Shown: positions 8,515 through 19,728 of the stretch, piece after piece
How the letters are laid out: the number at the start of each line of letters is the position of its first letter
How positions within the stretch are numbered: the stretch's first letter is position 1
NCBI GenBank assembly: GCA_903862465.1
Contig: CAIOYH010000228.1
Location: forward strand, 1 to 37,372
Source: an uncultured bacterium
Lineage (GTDB): Bacteria > Bacteroidota > Bacteroidia > Bacteroidales > CAIWKO01
Reading direction: 5' to 3'
Length of the DNA stretch: 37,372 bases
Notes under the pieces: generated by a model
What the model saw: only the letters and a program-made list of their open reading frames with translations
Database searches by the model: none
Told to the model about the DNA's origin: nothing
Position numbers and translations under genes: made by a program

Positions 8515-8556
8515 AAACTTCCGAAGATGAAAATAATTCTTCGGAAGTTTTTTTTT
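8515..8556 (+). terminator. Strong rho-independent terminator
   Basis: A perfect 13-bp stem, AAACTTCCGAAGA (8515-8527) with TCTTCGGAAGTTT (8538-8550), a ten-base loop and a T run continuing to 8556. It ends transcription entering from array 2 and insulates the next gene, whose -7 box starts 17 bases later. Confidence 0.8.
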
Positions 8557-8572
8557 GAAAAGAATATTATTG

Positions 8573-8580
8573 TATCTTTG
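8573..8580 (+). promoter_or_regulatory. Promoter -7 box TATCTTTG for the Fib_succ lipoprotein
   Basis: Exact TAnnTTTG match just after the terminator. A TTTG at 8554-8557 is a possible -33 element, but the spacing of 15 is short. The ATG is 125 bases downstream, so the leader includes the REP-like hairpins. Confidence 0.5.
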
Positions 8581-8596
8581 TAAAAAATATTATGCC

Positions 8597-8664
8597 GTGC
8601 TCGCTCGGATTTATAATCCGAGTGGTCTAAAATTCGAACGGATTGCAAATCCGTTCGAGCGGAG
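8597..8664. repeat. REP-like double hairpin in a 5' leader
   Basis: Two adjacent hairpins share the core GGATT/AATCC. The first is CTCGGATT-tat-AATCCGAG (8604-8622, 8-bp perfect stem). The second is CGAACGGATT-gca-AATCCGTTCG (8635-8657, 10-bp perfect stem). A further GCTCG (8599-8603) pairs with CGAGC (8656-8660), so an alternative closing stem is possible. This paired arrangement resembles the REP/BIME elements mobilised by RAYT transposases. It lies between the promoter and the ATG of the next gene and should be transcribed. Confidence 0.7.
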
Positions 8665-8704
8665 TAAAAGGCAAATATTTCGTAATTTCAAAAATTTAAA
8701 AAGA

Positions 8705-9658
8705 ATGAAAAAGCAAGAAAGATTTTGGATTCAATTATTAACAATGGTAGTATTAATATTTTTTACATATAGTTGTAAAAAAGCTGATGTGCCTGTTATA
8801 ATTACCTTAGATGATTATGAGGTATTTGCTACATCCGCTAGATTTAATACTACTTTTACGAGTGATGGAGGTGCAGATGTAAAATCTAAAGGGGTATGTT
8901 GGAGTACGGAACCTTTACCTACTATAGACGCAAATAAAACAAGCGATGGTGATGGAATAGAAAGCTTTACAAGTACTATATCAGGCTTAATGCCTAATAC
9001 CACATACTATATTCGCGCTTATGCCTCGAATAGAAAAGGCATTTCTTATGGTGACCAAAATATGATTAAGACATTTGAAGATGAATTATATGATATTGAT
9101 GGCAATGTTTATCCAATTGTATCCATTGGCACACAAGTATGGTTGGCATCAAATCTTAAAGTAACACACTACCGCAATGGGGATCTTATTCCTTGTGTAC
9201 TTGATTTTGGCTTATGGAATGGTTTGACAACGGGAGCTTACTGCATGCCTAATAATCTTGGGGCTTTATATAATTGGTATTCAATAAATGATAATCGCGG
9301 TTTGGCACCATATGGTTGGCATATTCCTTCTAAAAATGAATGGACAACTTTGACCAATTTTTGCGGTGGTAAATACGTCGCGGGATATAAATTAAAGGAA
9401 AAAGGTTCCTTACATTGGAGAACTGATAAAAATGGAGTTATTAATTCTGCTGATAATGAAACGAGGTTTACCGCTCTTCCGGGAGGTTATGTACATGCGA
9501 TGGGGTATGGTGGCTTTGGGTCATGTGGTTATTGGTGGTCTTCTTCTGAGAATGGAACTCTTGCTTGGGGTTGTTCCATGACCTATAGTAACGCAATAGT
9601 TGACACTTCATACGAATCGAAAACTTACGTCTATTCTCTTAGATGTATAAAGGATTAA
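8705..9658 (+). CDS. Lipoprotein with FN3-like domain and Fibrobacter-paralogue (Fib_succ_major) domain
   Basis: A 317-residue predicted lipoprotein: MKKQ start, a hydrophobic segment (9-22) and a lipobox TYSC with Cys24. Residues about 28-123 form an FN3-like module with the GVCWST and NTTYYIRAYASN signatures common in Bacteroidota surface proteins. Residues about 130-317 are a Fib_succ_major (TIGR02145-type) domain: DIDGNVYPIVSIGTQVW, WLASNL, GALYNWY, GWHIPSKNEW, ALPGGY, YWWSSSE and a final LRCIKD. The ATG at 8705 is chosen because it gives a clean lipoprotein signal; the open frame extends further upstream, but that part lies over the REP-like hairpins and the promoter. Probable surface lipoprotein, function unknown. 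Confidence 0.88.
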   Translation: MKKQERFWIQLLTMVVLIFFTYSCKKADVPVIITLDDYEVFATSARFNTTFTSDGGADVKSKGVCWSTEPLPTIDANKTSDGDGIESFTSTISGLMPNTTYYIRAYASNRKGISYGDQNMIKTFEDELYDIDGNVYPIVSIGTQVWLASNLKVTHYRNGDLIPCVLDFGLWNGLTTGAYCMPNNLGALYNWYSINDNRGLAPYGWHIPSKNEWTTLTNFCGGKYVAGYKLKEKGSLHWRTDKNGVINSADNETRFTALPGGYVHAMGYGGFGSCGYWWSSSENGTLAWGCSMTYSNAIVDTSYESKTYVYSLRCIKD

Positions 9659-10040: not shown

Positions 10041-11648
10041 GTGTATAGACTGCAATCGAAAATTGACACCACAACCGAGGAGTTCAAAAAGAACAAGGAA
10101 GATTTTTTAGCCTTATTGAATCAATACAAAAGCATTCACAAAGAAGTGACCAAAGGCGGCTCGGCAGGCGCCATCCGCAAACATAAAGAACGCGGCAAAC
10201 TCTTGGCACGCGAACGCATAGATGTGTTGATAGACCCCAACACTCCCTTTTTGGAGTTGTCGTCCTTGGCTTGTTATGACCTGTATGATAATGGATTTCC
10301 TTCGGCAGGAATTGCCACAGGTATCGGATTGATACATGGCAGAGAAGTGGTGGTGATTGCCAATGATGCCACAGTGAAAGGTGGCACGTATATGTCGTTC
10401 ACCATCAAGAAACACCTCCGCGCCCAAGAAATAGCGATGGAGAATCATTTGCCCTGCGTTTATTTGGTGGATTCGGGTGGAGCCTTTTTGCCCGAGCAAG
10501 ATAAGGTGTTTCCCGATAGAGACCATTTTGGCAGATTTTTCTACAATCAGGCACGCATGTCGGCAATGGGTATTCCCCAAATCGCCATCGTGATGGGTTC
10601 GTGTACGGCAGGCGGAGCCTATATGCCCGCGATGAGCGACGAAACCATCATCATACGCAACCAAGGCACCATCTTTTTGGGTGGACCTCCTTTGGTGAAA
10701 GGTGCTACGGGCGAAATTGTGACGCCCGAAGAACTCGGAGGTGCCGAAGTACACACGTCTATCTCGGGCGTGGCAGACCATATAGCCGAAAACGATCATC
10801 ATGCCATACAGATTTGCCGCAATATTTTCCAATCTATGGAAAAGAAAGAGAAGCAGGTGTTGGATGTGACGCCTATAGAAGAACCTTTTTATGATCCCGA
10901 AGAGCTGTATGGCATAGCGCCCATTGATTTTCGGAAGATGTTAGACCCGCGCGAAATCATTGCCCGCATGGTGGATGGCAGCAAATTTCATGAGTTTAAG
11001 GAAAACTATGGCACCACCTTGGTGACAGGTTTTGCCCGTATCATGGGATTCCCCATCGGCATCGTTGCCAACAATGGCGTGTTGCTGTCTGAATCGGCAT
11101 TGAAAGGCACCCATTTTATTGAACTGTGCACCTCGCGCAAGATTCCTTTGTTGTTTCTGCAAAATATCACAGGCTTCATGGTGGGCAAAGAATATGAACG
11201 CAAAGGGATAGCCAAAGACGGCGCCAAAATGGTGCATGCCGTGGCGAATGCCAATGTGCCGAAGTTTACGGTTATTTTTGGCGGTTCGTTTGGAGCAGGC
11301 AACTATGGTATGGCAGGCAGGTCGTTCAGTCCGCGTTTGTTGTTTATGTGGCCCAACAGCAAAATATCCGTCATGGGCGGATTGCAAGCTGCCACAGTGC
11401 TCATCACCGTGAAAGAAGAACAGATGCAGTTGGAAGGCAAAGTGATGCATCCCGACGATATGGACAAAATGCGCAAAAGCATCATCGCCAAATATGACCA
11501 CGAAGGTTCTGCTTTGTATAGCACCGCCCGCATGTGGGACGATGGTATCATTGATCCTGTGGATACCCGCAAGGTGATCGCTATGGGCATCGCTGCCTCG
11601 CTCAACAATAAATTTAACGACCAAAAGAACGGCGTTTTCAGAATGTAA
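10041..11648 (+). CDS. mccB: 3-methylcrotonyl-CoA carboxylase beta-type carboxyltransferase subunit
   Basis: A 535-residue biotin-dependent acyl-CoA carboxyltransferase, the usual length of MccB. It carries the MccB hallmark VFPDRDHFGR followed by FYNQARMSAMGIPQ, the N-terminal oxyanion region GSCTAGGAYMPAMSDE and the C-terminal GGSFGAGNYGMAGRSFSPR. The enzyme exchanges a carboxyl group between carboxybiotin and 3-methylcrotonyl-CoA to give 3-methylglutaconyl-CoA in leucine breakdown. The start is a GTG; no ATG is well placed. It heads the operon behind a strong promoter. Normally its partner is MccA (biotin carboxylase plus carrier). Here the only biotin protein nearby is the 5S-type fusion at 12504, which has no biotin carboxylase domain. 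Confidence 0.92.
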   Translation: MYRLQSKIDTTTEEFKKNKEDFLALLNQYKSIHKEVTKGGSAGAIRKHKERGKLLARERIDVLIDPNTPFLELSSLACYDLYDNGFPSAGIATGIGLIHGREVVVIANDATVKGGTYMSFTIKKHLRAQEIAMENHLPCVYLVDSGGAFLPEQDKVFPDRDHFGRFFYNQARMSAMGIPQIAIVMGSCTAGGAYMPAMSDETIIIRNQGTIFLGGPPLVKGATGEIVTPEELGGAEVHTSISGVADHIAENDHHAIQICRNIFQSMEKKEKQVLDVTPIEEPFYDPEELYGIAPIDFRKMLDPREIIARMVDGSKFHEFKENYGTTLVTGFARIMGFPIGIVANNGVLLSESALKGTHFIELCTSRKIPLLFLQNITGFMVGKEYERKGIAKDGAKMVHAVANANVPKFTVIFGGSFGAGNYGMAGRSFSPRLLFMWPNSKISVMGGLQAATVLITVKEEQMQLEGKVMHPDDMDKMRKSIIAKYDHEGSALYSTARMWDDGIIDPVDTRKVIAMGIAASLNNKFNDQKNGVFRM

Positions 11649-11693: not shown

Positions 11694-12482
11694 ATGAAAA
11701 CTTACGAAACGCTCGAAATAGAAATAAACGAAGGCATTTGCACCGTGTGGCTCAACCGCCCCGACGTGCACAATGCGCTGAATCAACAACTGATTGCAGA
11801 TTTGATTGACTGCTTCGACATCATGAATACGATGACGGATGTGCGCATCGCTGTGTTGCGCGGCAGAGGCAAATCGTTTTGCGCGGGTGCCGATTTGAAT
11901 TATATGAAAGGCATTTCCACCTATGGTTTGGAAGAAAACTATCAAGACAGTTTGAAACTTGCCAAATGTTTCAATGCCATCTACACCTGCAAAAAACCTA
12001 CTATTGCTATTGTTCAGGGTGCTGCCATCGGTGGTGCCAATGGTTTGTTGGCGGCATGTGATTTTGTGTATTGCACCGATGACACCAAGTTTGCGTTCAG
12101 TGAGGTGAAGTTGGGCATTGCGCCTGCCACCATTTCCTTGTATGTCACCAAACGTATAGGCGAATATGGCTCACGCGAATTGATGATAAGCGGCAGAAGA
12201 TTCACAGGCAAAGAAGCCGAATGGTATCGTTTGGTGAACAAATCCTTGCCTGCTGATGAATTGGATGCGTATGTAAAAACTATTATTGATGGTTTGATGA
12301 CAAGCGGACCCGATGCAATGGCTGCCTGCAAAGAGTTAATCTATAACATATCCAACAAATTGAGCTTCGAGGATGCCATTGACTACACCGCACGCCTCAT
12401 TGCCGAACTGCGCGCCTCCAAAGAGGGTCAGGAAGGCATGGCTTCGTATTTAGAAAAAAGAAAACCCAATTGGGTGAATTGA
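11694..12482 (+). CDS. liuC: Methylglutaconyl-CoA hydratase (LiuC-type enoyl-CoA hydratase)
   Basis: A 262-residue crotonase-fold enzyme. Oxyanion-hole segments are FCAGADL (62-68) and GAAIGGANG (109-117). SEVKLGIAPATISLYV (136-151) resembles the LGLxPAxISPYV stretch of LiuC-type methylglutaconyl-CoA hydratases rather than the PGAGGTQ of ordinary crotonases. Glu137 fits the catalytic glutamate corresponding to crotonase E164. The second crotonase glutamate (E144) is replaced within GGANGLLAACD, as I recall for LiuC proteins. Expected reaction: 3-methylglutaconyl-CoA plus water to HMG-CoA. It lies 45 bases after mccB and 21 bases before the biotin fusion gene, which supports the leucine assignment. 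Confidence 0.85.
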   Translation: MKTYETLEIEINEGICTVWLNRPDVHNALNQQLIADLIDCFDIMNTMTDVRIAVLRGRGKSFCAGADLNYMKGISTYGLEENYQDSLKLAKCFNAIYTCKKPTIAIVQGAAIGGANGLLAACDFVYCTDDTKFAFSEVKLGIAPATISLYVTKRIGEYGSRELMISGRRFTGKEAEWYRLVNKSLPADELDAYVKTIIDGLMTSGPDAMAACKELIYNISNKLSFEDAIDYTARLIAELRASKEGQEGMASYLEKRKPNWVN

Positions 12483-12503: not shown

Positions 12504-14690
12504 ATGAAAAAAGAAATAAAATTTAGTTTGGTTTATCGTGATATGTGGCAATCTTCAGGGAAGTATGTTCCACGAGTTGACCAATTAAATAAAATTGCAC
12601 CCGTCATTGTTGATATGGGATGTTTCGACAGAATTGAAACCAATGGCGGTGCGTTCGAACAGGTCAACCTGTTGTATGGCGAAAACCCCAACACAGCCGT
12701 GCGCCAATGGACCAAGCCTTTTAACGATGCGGGCATACAAACCCACATGCTCGAACGCGCCTTGAACGGCATACGTATGTTTCCCGTTCCTGCGGATGTT
12801 CGTCGCTTGATGTATAAGGTGAAAAAAGCGCAAGGCGTTGACATCGCAAGGTCTTTCTGCGGATTGAATGACCATCGCAATTTGGAATTGTCTATCAAAT
12901 ATGCCAAAGAAGCAGGCATGATATCCCAAGCGGCATTGAGCATCACCCATTCGGAAGTGCATTCGGTGGCGTATTATATGGGCGTGGTTGACAAAGCCGT
13001 TGAATACGGCGCCGACGAAATCTGCTTGAAAGATATGGCAGGCATTGGCAGACCGACCACCTTGGGCAGATTGGTGAAAGCCATCAAAGATAAACATCCT
13101 CATATCGTGGTGCAATATCATGGTCATTCAGGACCGGGATTCTCTGTGGCTTCAGCATTAGAAGTAGCTCGGGCGGGTGCCGACTATTTGGATGTGGCTA
13201 TGGAACCGCTCTCATGGGGTATGATGCATCCCGATGTGATTACCATTCGCGAAATGTTGGCTGACGACGGATTTCTTGTCCCCGAAATCAACATGAACGC
13301 CTATATGGAAGCGCGCGCTTTGACACAATCTTTTATTGATGATTTCTTGGGATATTTTATTGACCCTAAGAATCGTTATATCTCGTCCTTGCTCATTGGC
13401 TCCGGCTTACCCGGCGGGATGATGGGTAGTTTGATGGCAGATTTGAAAGGAATTCACAGCGTGATAAACGCTACTTTGAAGAGTCAAGGACAGCACGAAC
13501 TCAACGAAGATGAACTCTTAGTGAAACTCTTTGACGAAGTTACCTATATATGGCCCAAACTCGGTTATCCCCCCTTGGTCACTCCTTTCAGTCAATATGT
13601 GAAGAATGTGGCGTTGCTCAACATTTTACAATTGACCAAGGGCGAAGAACGCTATTCGATGATAGATAACAACACTTGGGATATGATATTGGGCAAATCA
13701 GGGCTATTACCCGGACCTTTGGCACCTGAAATCACTCAGTTGGCGAAGAGCTTAGGTAAAGAGTTCTACACAGGCGTACCACAGGAAGCTTATCCCGATG
13801 TGTTGGATAAATTCCGCAAAGAAATGATTGAAAACAATTGGGAGTTTGGCGACGACGAAGAAGAATTGTTCGAGTTTGCCATGCACGAAACCCAATATAG
13901 AGAGTATAAATCAGGGGTTGCGAAAACGCGTTTTGAAGAAGAAATTGAAACAGCCAAATCACAATCCACCGAAAACAAACCAATAGCAAAGATGAAAGAG
14001 AAACAAAGTCCAAATCGGAGTTCCTATTCAAAAGAAAAAGTTTCTGCCAACCAAGCCATGACGGCGTTTGCCCTCTACACCTTGAACCAAAAAGCAGACA
14101 CCCCTGTTGAATATTCCAATCCAACCAACAATGTGTGGAACACGATTGGTTTTTGGAGAAATGTGTTGAAAGTGAGTATCAATTATGAAAAGAAGGATAC
14201 CGAACTCTATTACAGAAAATCGAAAGATGGTGTGTATGATATAGACATTCAGGGCGAAACCCTACAAGCTAAAGTGGACTATGTGGGCGAAGGCGAAGTG
14301 GATGTAACATTGAATGGCACCAAGATTTTTGCCGCCATCAGTTTGACCGCCGACGGAAAATCAAAAGTCTTGATCAACGGTCAGGAATTTATAATGCTCC
14401 GCAATGATTTGTTGATAGATACGGATGCTTCCGAAGAAATGGAATCTAATCAAGATTCAGGTTCATCACATAACTTATATTCACCCATCCCGGGTAAAGT
14501 ATTCAAGATTCTTGTGAAAGAAGGCGACACGGTTCATAAAGGCGACAATGTCATCGTGGTGGATGCCATGAAGATGGAAAACAATATTTTGGCAAAAAGA
14601 GATTCTGTGGTAAAGAAAATCCACGTAACCGTGAACCAAATGGTGAGCGGCAACTTTTTGCTTGTTGAACTTGAAGATATAAAAAGCTAA
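12504..14690 (+). CDS. Biotin protein: 5S-type carboxyltransferase fused to BT-like and biotinyl domains (putative transcarboxylase subunit)
   Basis: A 728-residue protein with no biotin carboxylase domain. Residues 1 to about 470 are a DRE-TIM carboxyltransferase like transcarboxylase 5S, oxaloacetate decarboxylase alpha and the CT domain of pyruvate carboxylase. Asp13 in RDMWQS, Lys176 in CLKDMAGIG, His206 and His208 in YHGHSG match, with near-identical spacing, the 5S metal ligands including the carbamylated lysine. Around 540-640, GFWRNVLKVSINY, GVYDIDIQG and VLINGQEFIM resemble the BT domain of MccA/PccA. A biotinyl domain follows with AMKMENN, Lys690 biotinylated. With MccB it may form a transcarboxylase linking an oxaloacetate/pyruvate-like acid to 3-methylcrotonyl-CoA (inference). 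The loop EPLSWGMMHPD differs from known 5S enzymes, so the acid substrate is uncertain. Its stop directly abuts the next ATG (TAAATG). Confidence 0.85.
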   Translation: MKKEIKFSLVYRDMWQSSGKYVPRVDQLNKIAPVIVDMGCFDRIETNGGAFEQVNLLYGENPNTAVRQWTKPFNDAGIQTHMLERALNGIRMFPVPADVRRLMYKVKKAQGVDIARSFCGLNDHRNLELSIKYAKEAGMISQAALSITHSEVHSVAYYMGVVDKAVEYGADEICLKDMAGIGRPTTLGRLVKAIKDKHPHIVVQYHGHSGPGFSVASALEVARAGADYLDVAMEPLSWGMMHPDVITIREMLADDGFLVPEINMNAYMEARALTQSFIDDFLGYFIDPKNRYISSLLIGSGLPGGMMGSLMADLKGIHSVINATLKSQGQHELNEDELLVKLFDEVTYIWPKLGYPPLVTPFSQYVKNVALLNILQLTKGEERYSMIDNNTWDMILGKSGLLPGPLAPEITQLAKSLGKEFYTGVPQEAYPDVLDKFRKEMIENNWEFGDDEEELFEFAMHETQYREYKSGVAKTRFEEEIETAKSQSTENKPIAKMKEKQSPNRSSYSKEKVSANQAMTAFALYTLNQKADTPVEYSNPTNNVWNTIGFWRNVLKVSINYEKKDTELYYRKSKDGVYDIDIQGETLQAKVDYVGEGEVDVTLNGTKIFAAISLTADGKSKVLINGQEFIMLRNDLLIDTDASEEMESNQDSGSSHNLYSPIPGKVFKILVKEGDTVHKGDNVIVVDAMKMENNILAKRDSVVKKIHVTVNQMVSGNFLLVELEDIKS

Positions 14691-15569
14691 ATGAATCTTG
14701 TCATAACTGAAAGTCCTCGTGATGCTATGCAAAGCTTGCACGATTATATTCCGGCGCAGATAAAAGCCGATTATATCAATCGTTTGTTGCAAGTTGGCTT
14801 TGATTGCATTGACGTGGGGAGTTTTGTATCCGAAAAAGCCATTCCGCAGTTGAAAGACACGAGCGAGGTGCTTCGATTACTTGACCTTTCAGCCACAAGA
14901 TCCAAAATAATGGTGTTGATAGCAAACGAAAAAGGCATAGAAACAGCTATGAACTTCGAAGAGATTTCGTGGCTCGCTTTCCCCTTTTCCGCCTCTCCCA
15001 CCTTCTTAAAACTCAACATCAATGCAGATGTCAAGCAAGCGCTGAATCTTACTGAACTTGCACGCAATAGTTGCGAAAGCCATAAGAAAAGCTTGAAAGT
15101 GTATCTAACGATGGCTTTCGGAAACCCGTATGAAGATAAATTCGATACAGATATTATTCTCGAAGCCGTAGCAAAACTTTCTGCCATGGGTATTCGTTAT
15201 ATCACCTTGTCGGATATCACAGGCGTGGCGACTCCCGAATTGATTGCAAGCACCTACAAACAAGTCCTTGCTGATTTCCCTGCCATTGAATTCGGATTGC
15301 ATCTTCATACTACCCATGAAACAAATTATGAGAAGTTAGACGCAGCTTACTTGAGTGGCTGCAGGAGTTTCGATACCGTGTTGAACGGCATGGGCGGCTG
15401 TCCTATGACAGGTTATGAGTTGGTGAGCAATTTGAACACCCTCGATTTGATGAAATACCTCAACCAAAACAAAATTAAAACAGAAATTCACAATATGGTG
15501 TTGGGTGAAGCATTAAAAATGAACAACGAACTGTTCAACACAAATATTAAATCCCCGATATTAAATTAG
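14691..15569 (+). CDS. Hydroxymethylglutaryl-CoA lyase
   Basis: A 292-residue DRE-TIM metallolyase of normal length for the family. SPRDAMQ gives Arg10 and Asp11 (human R41/D42), LHLHTTHE gives His204 and His206, and GMGGCPMTGYE holds Cys237 at the place of the catalytic cysteine in GGCPYAKGASGN. It should cleave HMG-CoA to acetyl-CoA and acetoacetate, the last carbon-cleaving step of leucine breakdown. The start codon touches the stop of the biotin fusion gene, so translation is probably coupled. A second, altered homologue lies at 17046; this copy has the complete catalytic set and is the better candidate for the true lyase. It ends with TAG. Confidence 0.87.
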   Translation: MNLVITESPRDAMQSLHDYIPAQIKADYINRLLQVGFDCIDVGSFVSEKAIPQLKDTSEVLRLLDLSATRSKIMVLIANEKGIETAMNFEEISWLAFPFSASPTFLKLNINADVKQALNLTELARNSCESHKKSLKVYLTMAFGNPYEDKFDTDIILEAVAKLSAMGIRYITLSDITGVATPELIASTYKQVLADFPAIEFGLHLHTTHETNYEKLDAAYLSGCRSFDTVLNGMGGCPMTGYELVSNLNTLDLMKYLNQNKIKTEIHNMVLGEALKMNNELFNTNIKSPILN

Positions 15570-15608: not shown

Positions 15609-16301
15609 ATGCGAAAAGTTGTAAAAAATGCCATTGAAGCCATAGCAGGATTGACAGACAATATGTCAATTTCAGTGGGTGGATTTGGTTTATGCGGGAT
15701 TCCCGAAAACAGTATTCAAGCCATTTATGATGCCGGTATCATGGGCATCACCTGCTATTCAAACAATGCAGGTGTTGATGGTTGGGGATTGGGTTTGCTC
15801 TTGCAAAAACATCAAATTAAAAAAATGATTGCCTCTTATGTAGGCGAAAACAAAGAATTCGAACGTCAGTTGCTTTCGGGCGAGTTGGAAGTGGAATTGA
15901 TTCCTCAAGGCACTTTGGCTGAAAGATTGCGTGCGGGTGGCGCCGGTATTCCTGCTTTCTTTGTTCCTGCAGGCTATGGCACCGAAGTACAAGGTAACAA
16001 AGAAGTGCGCGAGTTCAATGGCAAAATGCACTTACTCGAAATGGGTATCGTCACCGACTTTGCCATCGTCAAAGCTTGGAAAGGTGATGAAAGCGGCAAC
16101 TTGGTATTTAGAAACACGGCAGCAAACTTCAATAATATGATAGCCACGGCAGGAAAAATCACCATCGCCGAAGTAGAAGAATTAGTTCCTATTGGAGCGC
16201 TCGACCCCAATCATATTCACACACCGGGCATTTTTGTTCAACGCATTTTCCAAGGAACAGATTATCAAAAGAAAATTGAATTTGTAACCACACGCGACTA
16301 A
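15609..16301 (+). CDS. scoA: 3-oxoacid CoA-transferase subunit A
   Basis: A 230-residue subunit A of the SCOT/AtoDA family. SVGGFGLCGIPENSI (about 22-36) is the typical glycine-rich N-terminal signature, and CYSNNAG follows at the expected place. With the next gene it forms the heterodimer that transfers CoA from succinyl-CoA or acetyl-CoA to acetoacetate, producing acetoacetyl-CoA. In this operon it would activate the acetoacetate released by HMG-CoA lyase. It is 39 bases behind that gene and 42 bases ahead of subunit B. Which CoA donor is used cannot be decided from the sequence. Confidence 0.92.
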   Translation: MRKVVKNAIEAIAGLTDNMSISVGGFGLCGIPENSIQAIYDAGIMGITCYSNNAGVDGWGLGLLLQKHQIKKMIASYVGENKEFERQLLSGELEVELIPQGTLAERLRAGGAGIPAFFVPAGYGTEVQGNKEVREFNGKMHLLEMGIVTDFAIVKAWKGDESGNLVFRNTAANFNNMIATAGKITIAEVEELVPIGALDPNHIHTPGIFVQRIFQGTDYQKKIEFVTTRD

Positions 16302-16343: not shown

Positions 16344-17000
16344 ATGGCATTAGATAAAAATGGTATAGCACAACGCATAGCGCAGGAATTAAAAGATGGT
16401 TATTATGTGAACCTCGGCATCGGCATTCCTACCTTGGTAGCGAATTATATTCCGAAAAACATCGAAGTGGTGCTTCATTCCGAAAATGGTTTATTGGGCA
16501 TCGGTCCTTTTCCAAAAAAAGAAGATGTTGATCCCGATCTCATCAATGCAGGCAAACAAACCGTAACAGCCATCGAAGGTGCTGCCTTCTTCGACTCTGC
16601 AACAAGCTTTGGCATGATACGCGGTGGACACGTGGACTTAACCGTGCTTGGAGCTTTTGAAGTTTCCGTAGAAGGTGACATCGCTAGTTGGAAAGTCCCC
16701 GGCAAATTGGTTAAAGGTATGGGCGGCGCCATGGATTTGGTAGCTTCTGCAAAGTACATCATTGTAGCCATGCAACATACCGACAAAGAAGGCAAATCAA
16801 AACTACTCAACAAATGCACCTTACCCTTGACAGGCGTAAATTGCGTAAAGAGAATTGTTACCGAAATCGCAGTGATTGATGTAACAAAAGACGGCTTCAA
16901 ACTTATCGAAAGAGCTCCGGGTGTCACCGTAGAAGAAATCGTGAAAGCCACCGAAGGCAAACTAATCGTTGAAGGCGACATCCCTGAAATGAAATTATAA
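16344..17000 (+). CDS. scoB: 3-oxoacid CoA-transferase subunit B
   Basis: A 218-residue subunit B of the SCOT family. The segment [10 protein letters not shown] contains the catalytic glutamate that forms the CoA thioester intermediate, and [13 protein letters not shown] near the N-terminus is the usual CoA-transferase type-I signature. Later motifs ([15 protein letters not shown] and [10 protein letters not shown]) also agree. It pairs with subunit A directly upstream. Downstream, a short low-complexity stretch of AATCTTAATTCACAAATC words fills the gap to the next gene without a hairpin, so the operon probably continues. Confidence 0.93.
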
Positions 17001-17045: not shown

Positions 17046-18056
17046 ATGCAATACCCTAAAAAAGTAACAATCGGCGACATCACCGTTCGTGATGGTTTTC
17101 AGCATGAAGAACAATTCATTTCCACAGATGCTAAATTATGGTTGGCTGAAGAGTTAATCCTTGCTGGATTTAAACATATTGAAACAACAAATTTTGGCAA
17201 TCCAACAGGCATGCCACAATTTAAAGATGCAGACGAACTCATGAAACGTCTGTGCTCAAGCAAAAAAGTCTCACATCTCATCAATGATGTATCCATCACG
17301 GCTATCACCATCCGCGAAAAGGCTGTTGAGAGAGCCATACAAGCAAAGAAAGATGGTTTCGGTCCCGACCGTATATTGTTGATGGTTTCCACGAGTGAAT
17401 CGCATCACAAAAAAAATTCAGGTCTTTCTTTGGAAGATTACTGGAAGATGAGCGAAAAATGTATTCGTGATGCTCATGATGCAGGTATCAAAGTGAACGG
17501 AACCGTTAGCACCATTTGGGGATGTCCTATTGAAGGACCTACCGATATGAAGAAAGCCATTGAATTCACCAAAAGATGGTTGGATATCGGTGCTGACGAT
17601 GTAGAACATGCCGACCACGATGGTTCAGCTTCTCCCAACAGAGTATATGATTACTATTCGATGTTGTTGGATAGCGTTCCTCGTCCCGAAAAACATATTG
17701 TCCATTTCCATACCACTCGCGGTTGGGGTTTAGCCAACGTGTTAGCAGCTTTACAAGCAGGCATGACAAATTTCGAATCCACCATGGGCGGCATTGGCGG
17801 TCAACCTGCTAATTTCGTAAGCGGCGTTCCCGTGGCAGGTACAGGCGCTTATTATTACAAAGACCCAAATCTTGTTGGCTTAGTTTCCACAGAAGACATG
17901 GTCGTGATGATGGATGAAATGGGCATAGATACAGGACTTAACATAGACAAAATTATTGAAATCGGTAATATGGTCGAAAGAATCACCGGCAGAAGATTGC
18001 GCTCAGAATCTATCAAAAACGGTAGGATTCCAAAGACATTAACAGGAAGAAGATAA
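17046..18056 (+). CDS. HMG-CoA lyase-like DRE-TIM protein lacking the usual cysteine
   Basis: A 336-residue paralogue of HMG-CoA lyase. It has TVRDGFQHEEQF (Arg15, Asp16), VHFHTTRGWGLANV (His220, His222) and a C-terminal STEDMVVMMDEMGIDTG segment as in HMG-CoA lyases. The cysteine loop GGCP is GGQP, with Gln at 253, and is followed by an insertion-like VAGTGAYYYKDPN. Residues 180-200 (GADDVEHADHDGSASP) also differ from the lyase consensus. It may act on a different 3-hydroxyacyl-CoA or condense rather than cleave. Automated annotation would probably call it HMG-CoA lyase. It follows scoB by 45 bases in the same orientation, so a role with the other operon genes is likely. Confidence 0.75.
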   Translation: MQYPKKVTIGDITVRDGFQHEEQFISTDAKLWLAEELILAGFKHIETTNFGNPTGMPQFKDADELMKRLCSSKKVSHLINDVSITAITIREKAVERAIQAKKDGFGPDRILLMVSTSESHHKKNSGLSLEDYWKMSEKCIRDAHDAGIKVNGTVSTIWGCPIEGPTDMKKAIEFTKRWLDIGADDVEHADHDGSASPNRVYDYYSMLLDSVPRPEKHIVHFHTTRGWGLANVLAALQAGMTNFESTMGGIGGQPANFVSGVPVAGTGAYYYKDPNLVGLVSTEDMVVMMDEMGIDTGLNIDKIIEIGNMVERITGRRLRSESIKNGRIPKTLTGRR

Positions 18057-18579: not shown

Positions 18580-19728
18580 ATGGAACACCCATTATTAAAC
18601 GAAGACCATCATCTCATCCGCGAATCTGTAAGAGATTTCGCTGAAAGAGAAATCAAACCTATCGCCAAAGAATTAGACGACAAACAAGAATTCTCCGTTG
18701 AACTCACTCAAAAGATGGGCGAGATTGGCTTATTCGGCATGGTTGTTTCTCCTGACTATGGTGGACAAGGCATGGATTATCTTTCCTATATCATCACCGT
18801 AGAAGAACTTGCCCGCATCGACAGCTCACAAGCAGCCACCGTGGCAGCAGGAAACTCTTTAGGCTTGAATCCTATTTTCTACTATGGCAACGAAGAACAG
18901 AAGAAGAAATACCTTCCCGTTCTCTGCACCGGTAAAAAACTTTGGGGCTTTGGTCTCACCGAACCTTTTGCAGGCTCCGATTCAAGAAACTCAAAAACCG
19001 TTGCCAAGTTGGTTGACGGAAATTGGACCATCAACGGCTCTAAGATTTTTATCACCAACGCTTCCTCCGAGATTTCCATTGGCTCTACCATTCAATGCGT
19101 CTCAGGCGACAATGGCAAAGACAAAGAATTCACCGCCATCATCGTCGAAAACGGAACACCCGGCTTCACCGTAAAGACCATGCACGACAAAATGATGTGG
19201 CGTGCCTCCAACACCGCCGAACTCTATTTCGACGAATGTACGGTACCCGAAAGCGCCATATTAGGCAAACGCGGCGAAGGCTCCAAAATCATGCTCGGCA
19301 CTTTAGACTGCGGCAGATTGGCTATCGGTGCTATGGGCTTAGGCTGCGCTCAAGGAGCTTATGAACTCGCTTTGCAATACGCACAAGAACGCGTGCAGTT
19401 TGGCAAACCCATCTGCAAACAACAAGTCATCGCTTTCAAACTTGCTGACATGGCTCTTAAGATTGAACTTGCGCGCAACCTCCTCTACAAAGCATGTTGG
19501 TTGAAAGACCATCACAAACCCTTTGCGATGGAAGCTGCCATGTCCAAACTCTATTGCTCCGAAGTAGCACAACAAGTTGCCAACGAAGCCGTACAGATTC
19601 ACGGAGGCTATGGTTTGATGAAAGACTACGACATCGAACGCTTCTTCCGCGACCAACGTCTGTTGCAAATCGGTGAAGGCACATCCGAAATCCAACGCTT
19701 GGTTATTTCAAGATATATTGGTTGTTAA
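18580..19728 (+). CDS. Acyl-CoA dehydrogenase (short/branched-chain type)
   Basis: A 382-residue flavin-dependent acyl-CoA dehydrogenase. It has the FAD/substrate signatures GFGLTEPFAGSD and WTINGSKIFITNA, the ERVQFGKPI segment, and QIHGGYGLMKDYDIERFFRD near the end. The C-terminal motif is IGEGTSEIQ with Glu366, the canonical catalytic base position of short- and medium-chain enzymes. Authentic isovaleryl-CoA dehydrogenases have alanine there and use a glutamate elsewhere. Context suggests isovaleryl-CoA as substrate, giving 3-methylcrotonyl-CoA, but the sequence itself looks more like a butyryl- or short-chain dehydrogenase. It is the last gene before a terminator. The electron acceptor (ETF) is not encoded in the window. 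Confidence 0.9.
   Translation: MEHPLLNEDHHLIRESVRDFAEREIKPIAKELDDKQEFSVELTQKMGEIGLFGMVVSPDYGGQGMDYLSYIITVEELARIDSSQAATVAAGNSLGLNPIFYYGNEEQKKKYLPVLCTGKKLWGFGLTEPFAGSDSRNSKTVAKLVDGNWTINGSKIFITNASSEISIGSTIQCVSGDNGKDKEFTAIIVENGTPGFTVKTMHDKMMWRASNTAELYFDECTVPESAILGKRGEGSKIMLGTLDCGRLAIGAMGLGCAQGAYELALQYAQERVQFGKPICKQQVIAFKLADMALKIELARNLLYKACWLKDHHKPFAMEAAMSKLYCSEVAQQVANEAVQIHGGYGLMKDYDIERFFRDQRLLQIGEGTSEIQRLVISRYIGC

Follow-up and report, generated by a model that had tools for sequence, protein, structure and literature searches.

The stretch of DNA analysed here (referred to as the window; 37,372 nucleotides, contig CAIOYH010000228.1 of an uncultured Bacteroidales bacterium) encodes a 728-residue protein which, as its domain make-up and homology show, consists of the BT and carrier domains of MccA type joined to a carboxyltransferase of the 5S/OadA type. 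In combination with the neighbouring MccB, this fusion is likely to constitute a biotin-dependent transcarboxylase that converts oxaloacetate and 3-methylcrotonyl-CoA to pyruvate and 3-methylglutaconyl-CoA. The reaction, its direction, the acid substrate and the docking of the two proteins are inferred; there are no data on activity or on a complex. The features of the locus are the following (evidence in parentheses).

10041..11648, + strand: MccB-type acyl-CoA carboxyltransferase, 535 aa, presumed partner of the fusion (Pfam, PDB sequence matches)
11694..12482, + strand: enoyl-CoA hydratase, probably 3-methylglutaconyl-CoA hydratase, role inferred (Pfam, NCBIfam)
12504..14690, + strand: fusion protein, 728 aa, 5S-type carboxyltransferase, BT and biotinyl carrier (open ORF, Pfam)
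12504..13949, + strand: carboxyltransferase with PYC_OADA domain, residues 1-482 (Pfam, fold, alignment)
12540-12542, 13029-13031, 13119-13121 and 13125-13127, + strand: metal ligands D13, K176, H206 and H208, respectively (alignment)
13950..14024, + strand: linker, residues 483-507 (model confidence mostly low)
14025..14423, + strand: BT domain, residues about 508-640, central helix and eight strands (model, fold, MccA homology)
14469..14675, + strand: biotinyl carrier domain, residues 656-724, with the biotin lysine K690 at 14571-14573 (Pfam, motif)
14691..15569, + strand: HMG-CoA lyase-like protein 1 (Pfam, NCBIfam)
15609..16301, + strand: 3-oxoacid CoA-transferase subunit A (NCBIfam)
16344..17000, + strand: 3-oxoacid CoA-transferase subunit B (NCBIfam)
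17046..18056, + strand: HMG-CoA lyase-like protein 2 (Pfam, NCBIfam)
18580..19728, + strand: acyl-CoA dehydrogenase, probably isovaleryl-CoA dehydrogenase, role inferred (Pfam, NCBIfam)

Pfam recognized HMGL-like (residues 130-233), PYC_OADA (344-482) and Biotin_lipoyl (659-723) domains in the fusion, and no biotin carboxylase or ATP-grasp domain. When the protein was compared with NCBIfam, at least 25 of 33 families stayed under their cut-offs. The AlphaFold model of the whole fusion had a mean pLDDT of 68.4. Besides the window, 15 full-length copies with conserved catalytic residues were found in public records; one of them (L008) is 99% identical to the window protein, and the remaining 14 are 65-69% identical to it.

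The BT assignment was studied with the region between the linker and the carrier. AlphaFold predicted a helix (residues 515-528) and eight strands (555-633) within residues about 508-640, and the pLDDT was above 90 in most core blocks when the region was modelled alone. In a fold search (VIA-align) the top 35 of the 50 best rows were acyl-CoA carboxylases, namely MCC, PCC, an engineered glycolyl-CoA carboxylase and ACC, and the next row had a Z of 4.4. The top match was human MCC (8xl6, chain residues 503-640; Z 13.3, rmsd 3.6, 117 aligned). In agreement with the fold, hhalign matched the C-terminal 229 residues of 15 fusions to the corresponding region of 21 Bacteroidales MccA proteins with a probability of 100 and an E of 7.4e-68 (35% identity, 215 columns). 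Because the BT region by itself had no Pfam match at E up to 10, and its profile found among PDB sequences three matches (E 0.29-1.1) with no carboxylase among them, the case for BT rests on the fold and on the MccA relatives. The PT domain of pyruvate carboxylase was absent from the 50 best fold rows, which does not exclude kinship with PT. Taken together, fold and sequence homology show that the BT domain, named BC-CT interaction domain in PMC3199775, and the biotinyl domain are of MccA type. The biotin motif was present in all 33 fusions identified in the survey described below (AMKME in 30, SMKME in 3); that the carrier can be biotinylated is inferred from this motif only.

The N-terminal half aligns with transcarboxylase 5S, oxaloacetate decarboxylase alpha and pyruvate carboxylase, and the best fold matches of the whole model were the beta subunit of two-subunit pyruvate carboxylase (5ks8, Z 25.9), OadA (Z 24.5) and 5S with pyruvate (Z 24.3). 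D13, K176, H206 and H208 align with the metal ligands of transcarboxylase 5S and of two-subunit pyruvate carboxylase; the last three are invariant in 33/33 fusions and D13 is kept in 32, the exception being L206, whose N-terminal end is truncated. Thus, the metal ligands of a 5S-type carboxyltransferase are intact. The comparison was extended to 66 paralogs of the Bacteroidales and two OadA-like outgroups: D13, Q16, R85, K176, H206, H208 and T360 are identical in all of these and in the 33 fusions wherever the residue is present (D13, Q16 and R85 are missing from the alignment in L206). In the HMMER alignment six of these residues agree with 5S, the exception being R85, which meets an arginine of human pyruvate carboxylase and not one of 5S or 5ks8, the segment being two residues off; in the MAFFT alignment R85 also meets an arginine of the two outgroups. 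Q16 and T360 match the classic enzymes. The pyruvate carboxylase residues corresponding to Q16, R85 and T360 hold pyruvate.

Two loops, EPLSWGMMHPD and HMLERALNG, are unlike those of classic 5S. E84, M92, W238 and H242 are common to all 66 paralogs; M92 and W238 thus arrived with the carboxyltransferase domain, and the unusual active-site loops are inherited from a Bacteroidales paralog. In the two outgroups a tyrosine occupies the place of M92, and the loop 236-244 also differs from theirs, which leaves the acid substrate uncertain. One fusion of 699 aa (L154, genome G072) has a gap around residues 228-245, including 237-242, beside the active site; this could be a true loss or an assembly error.

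Several claims of the initial annotation can be judged by these results. It had described a chimera of a 5S-type carboxyltransferase with an MccA-like BT and carrier, which was upheld by Pfam, fold and MccA homology, and a metal site of Asp13, Lys176, His206 and His208 as in 5S, which also held, these residues aligning with 5S and being conserved in the fusions. The carrier motif AMKMENN with Lys690 (AMKME or SMKME in 33/33) and the absence of an ATP-grasp biotin carboxylase from the protein (Pfam) were likewise confirmed. The BT-like region, placed at about 540-640, was found, although as a larger domain (about 508-640). Of the checks it proposed, a Pfam profile search found the PYC_OADA and biotinyl domains and not BT, and structure prediction of the fusion alone gave the BT fold. 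The two loops do differ from 5S, as had been noted, but E84, M92, W238 and H242 are shared with the paralogs. The suggestion that the partner acid may not be pyruvate is unsupported by these comparisons, taking into account that Q16 and T360 match the classic enzymes, that R85 matches pyruvate carboxylase and the outgroups, and that the loops are inherited; assay data do not exist.

The fusion ORF begins 21 bases past the hydratase ORF, and the ORF of HMG-CoA lyase-like protein 1 lies directly after its end. Judged from the protein families, the + strand gene run from MccB to the dehydrogenase is inferred to be an operon for leucine or isovalerate breakdown. The best match of the 535-aa MccB was a Legionella chain named PCC beta (9tps, 726 bits), whose sister entries (9tqc, 9tqg) bear the title L. 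pneumophila 3-methylcrotonyl-CoA carboxylase, followed by human MCC beta (699 bits), Pseudomonas MCC beta (691) and mycobacterial AccD1 (687). Geranyl-CoA carboxylase scored 492 and 12S 267 bits, and, except for 9tps and AccD1, chains named propionyl-CoA carboxylase did not exceed 260 bits. These matches show that the acyl-CoA partner in the window is an MCC-type beta subunit and not of the 12S type found in Propionibacterium. No gene for a biotin carboxylase, for the membrane subunits OadB or OadG, or for HMG-CoA synthase was detected among the nine neighbouring ORFs scanned. The two lyase-like proteins differ in conservation: compared with the fusion loci of other genomes (the near-copy L008 excluded), protein 1 is 43-59% and protein 2 is 77-88% identical, so protein 1 may have another role. 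A FISUMP (Fib_succ_major) protein is encoded upstream of the operon, at 8555-9658.

To determine the distribution of the fusion, we searched 393 genomes of the order with a profile built on residues 500-655 of 15 fusions. The matches fell into a group of 32 rows with E ≤5.7e-48 and a weaker group, in which most frames measured 660-690 aa. All four members of the weaker group checked with Pfam proved to be MccA, with the N, ATP-grasp and C domains of biotin carboxylase ahead of a biotinyl domain. With G088, a weaker-group row found to be a fusion from its locus, the fusion is present in about 33 of the 393 sampled Bacteroidales genomes. Frames are 706-780 aa in 29 of the 32 strong rows; G181 (598 aa) and G288 (372 aa) are short, probably cut by contig ends, and the reading of three fusions (G181, G189 and G288) was incomplete. 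Outside the order the fusion was not seen in a sample of 395 genomes drawn from the whole phylum: at E 1e-10 the BT profile picked out the genome of the window and none of the 394 others.

The gene order is MccB, enoyl-CoA hydratase and, in third place, the fusion or MccA, followed as a rule by acyl-CoA dehydrogenase. In the 84 loci scanned, MccB was accompanied by the fusion in 36 (29 distinct pairs, several loci being counted twice as the same records), by MccA in 33 (33 distinct) and by neither in seven; no locus had both. A protein of >540 aa with the MccA biotin carboxylase domain as best match is encoded in 36 loci. Among the seven loci with MccB alone, three have the fusion on another contig, L205 ends at a contig edge and L203 has no such gene. 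The operon slot and the lack of any locus with both genes show that the fusion took the place of MccA. Two clusters with distant MccBs, L201 (G141) and L212 (G284), contain the hydratase and the dehydrogenase and neither MccA nor the fusion, thus MccB can have other partners. These clusters continue with a 331-aa and a 442-aa ORF, which by eye resemble isopentenyl-diphosphate isomerase and HMG-CoA reductase; leucine might there feed the mevalonate route.

In a midpoint-rooted tree of 68 distinct MccBs (four rows unlabelled; L208, L209 and L210, in which MccB and the fusion are on different contigs, labelled as fusion partners by hand), the 31 distinct fusion-linked MccBs formed one clade with 100/100 support, nested in the MccA-linked MccBs. 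A quick tree of the carboxyltransferases, built from the 33 fusions, 43 of the 66 paralogs (23 were dropped for size) and two outgroups, placed all fusions in one group inside the paralogs (SH-aLRT 94). Both trees are compatible with one joining event within the Bacteroidales. Two long-branch MccBs inside the fusion clade, L180 (G287) and L185 (G233), stand beside an ordinary MccA; these could be reversals or gene swaps.

Biotin carboxylases were counted in 76 genomes: the 33 with the fusion and 43 with MccA, the latter picked by hand from the MccA-like rows and not representing all of them. One biotin carboxylase was found in 28/33 fusion genomes and none in 5/33, against two or three matches in 40/43 and one in 3/43 of the MccA genomes. 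Thus, genomes with the fusion have fewer biotin carboxylases. The three matches in G008 correspond to two genes, one of which is in two pieces. The five genomes in which none was found (G015, G036, G093, G150 and G288) have a reported completeness of 91-99%, and two of them, G036 and G150, share one genus. A 445-aa biotin carboxylase query at E 1e-5 had no match in two of the five (G036, G093). Its only matches in the other three were frames of ~1,080 aa with 23-25% identity, none of biotin carboxylase size; their size suggests carbamoyl-phosphate synthase. Many of the genomes are fragmented assemblies, the fusion frame of G288 being itself short, and absence of a gene is no proof. If the five genomes truly lack biotin carboxylase and the pair works, only a carboxyltransferase can charge the carrier, and the fusion contains one.

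One biotin carboxylase was found in the window's own genome, on another contig (G000:C172:476-1803); it is broken by a frame change in this assembly, whereas G003 of the same genus has it in a single frame. In the MccA genomes G104, G203 and G287, members of one family, MccA was the only biotin carboxylase found. Among G000-G038, none was found in 20/39 genomes (9/12 with the paralog, 11/27 without it), where malonyl-CoA could possibly be made by transcarboxylation. ATP-type PEP carboxykinase was over the cut-off in 23 of the 26 fusion genomes tested (of 33), and the GTP type was detected in the window's genome and in G003. G015, one of the fusion genomes without a detected biotin carboxylase, had neither type over the cut-off.

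In the proposed mechanism the 5S-type domain would move the carboxyl group of oxaloacetate onto the biotin of K690, and pyruvate would leave. The MccA-derived BT domain would keep the carrier beside MccB, the carrier would swing across, and MccB would carboxylate 3-methylcrotonyl-CoA to 3-methylglutaconyl-CoA, to be used by the hydratase and HMG-CoA lyase. The step would be free of ATP at the price of one oxaloacetate turned into pyruvate, and in most of these cells oxaloacetate could be remade via PEP carboxykinase. With respect to the remaining claims of the initial annotation, the idea that an acid-carboxyltransferase took over from the ATP-using half of an MccA is supported by the homology, the operon slot, the nested trees and one biotin carboxylase fewer per genome. 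Passage of a carboxyl group between MccB and an oxaloacetate-like acid remains the best reading, the MccB contact and the ATP-free activity being inferred only.

A bolder reading, toward which we lean without much margin, is that a new 3-methylcrotonyl-CoA:oxaloacetate carboxyltransferase replaced the ATP-dependent methylcrotonyl-CoA carboxylase once in the Bacteroidales, allowing leucine or isovalerate breakdown without ATP for carboxylation, and that lineages without biotin carboxylase may carboxylate CoA esters wholly by transcarboxylation from oxaloacetate. As it is taught, leucine breakdown spends ATP on the carboxylation of 3-methylcrotonyl-CoA. If this reading is true, the use of leucine and isovalerate by anaerobes would have a different energy balance, a domain would have been swapped between a carboxylase and a transcarboxylase in a single event, a ready test would be at hand for whether BT domains alone carry partner choice, and a possible tool for ATP-free carboxylation would be available.

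Several observations speak against the transcarboxylase reading: the gap in L154, the lack of PEP carboxykinase over the cut-off in G015, the MccBs that stand beside MccA inside the fusion clade or with neither partner, and the presence in 28/33 fusion genomes of a stand-alone biotin carboxylase able to charge the carrier. AccC could do so with ATP, as in two-subunit pyruvate carboxylase, the carboxyltransferase domain only adding pyruvate carboxylation; it is in keeping with this that the top whole-model match was the beta subunit of that enzyme. We regard this explanation as unlikely: no biotin carboxylase was found in five of the 33 genomes, two of them of one genus, nor in the nine neighbouring ORFs scanned, and the linking domain is the BT of MccA. 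Also unlikely is that the same machine uses another 2-oxo acid or a beta-keto acid as carboxyl donor. M92 in place of tyrosine and the loop 236-244, unlike the outgroups and present in 66/66 paralogs, speak for it, as does the failure of R85 to meet an arginine of 5S in the HMMER alignment; against it, the seven residues listed above, from D13 to T360, are those of both OadA-like outgroups, and six of them, R85 being the exception, are also those of 5S.

Transcarboxylases are reversible, and the enzyme could in principle transfer the carboxyl group of 3-methylglutaconyl-CoA to pyruvate, giving oxaloacetate and 3-methylcrotonyl-CoA for isovaleryl-CoA synthesis. This is very unlikely in an operon with HMG-CoA lyase-like genes, 3-oxoacid CoA-transferase and acyl-CoA dehydrogenase, and without HMG-CoA synthase among the nine neighbouring ORFs scanned. 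An assembly artefact or a decayed gene, conceivable in a genome fragmented into 230 contigs, is all but excluded by the 15 other full-length copies with conserved catalytic residues.

The transcarboxylase reading can be compared with several known systems. The Propionibacterium transcarboxylase (12S, 5S, 1.3S) consists of an acyl-CoA carboxyltransferase, the 5S acid carboxyltransferase and a biotin carrier, and is not known to include a biotin carboxylase. Its 5S fold matches the fusion (Z 24.3) and the working principle is the same, whereas the acyl-CoA partner of the fusion is MCC-type and not 12S-type, and 5S and carrier are in one chain with an MccA-type BT between them. A transcarboxylase of Giardia (Jordan et al. 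2003) is reported to be likewise fused and without biotin carboxylase; its acyl-CoA carboxyltransferase is reportedly part of the fused chain, and it has no reported tie to leucine breakdown. With 3-methylcrotonyl-CoA carboxylase (MccA/MccB) the system shares MccB, the BT and carrier domains, the place in the operon and the presumed product, but the biotin carboxylase half of MccA is missing and a 5S-type domain stands in its place. The beta subunit of two-subunit pyruvate carboxylase (5ks8) and oxaloacetate decarboxylase alpha resemble the fusion in being carboxyltransferases with a C-terminal carrier; in contrast to them, the linking domain of the fusion is by sequence an MCC-type BT, and its neighbour is an acyl-CoA carboxyltransferase and not a biotin carboxylase or a sodium pump.

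The closest relative of the N-terminal half is the Bacteroidales paralog of 578-646 aa, from whose group it branches in the quick tree and whose carboxyltransferase is 72-80% identical to that of the fusion (65 loci). The carrier-like domain of the paralog lacks the MKM biotin motif in 66/66 cases, whereas the fusions have it. No MCC-type MccB was found in the 65 paralog loci, many of which are cut by contig ends; in four of them a carboxyltransferase of a different type, 30% identical, is encoded. The paralog is widespread in the Bacteroidales (L022-L045, L047-L087, L116-L118). In the open-access literature searched (titles and abstract openings only) no report of a methylcrotonyl-CoA transcarboxylase was found. 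The transcarboxylase principle is known, whereas the acyl-CoA partner, the fused build with the BT domain of MccA and the pathway differ from the known systems, and the reaction itself is probably new.
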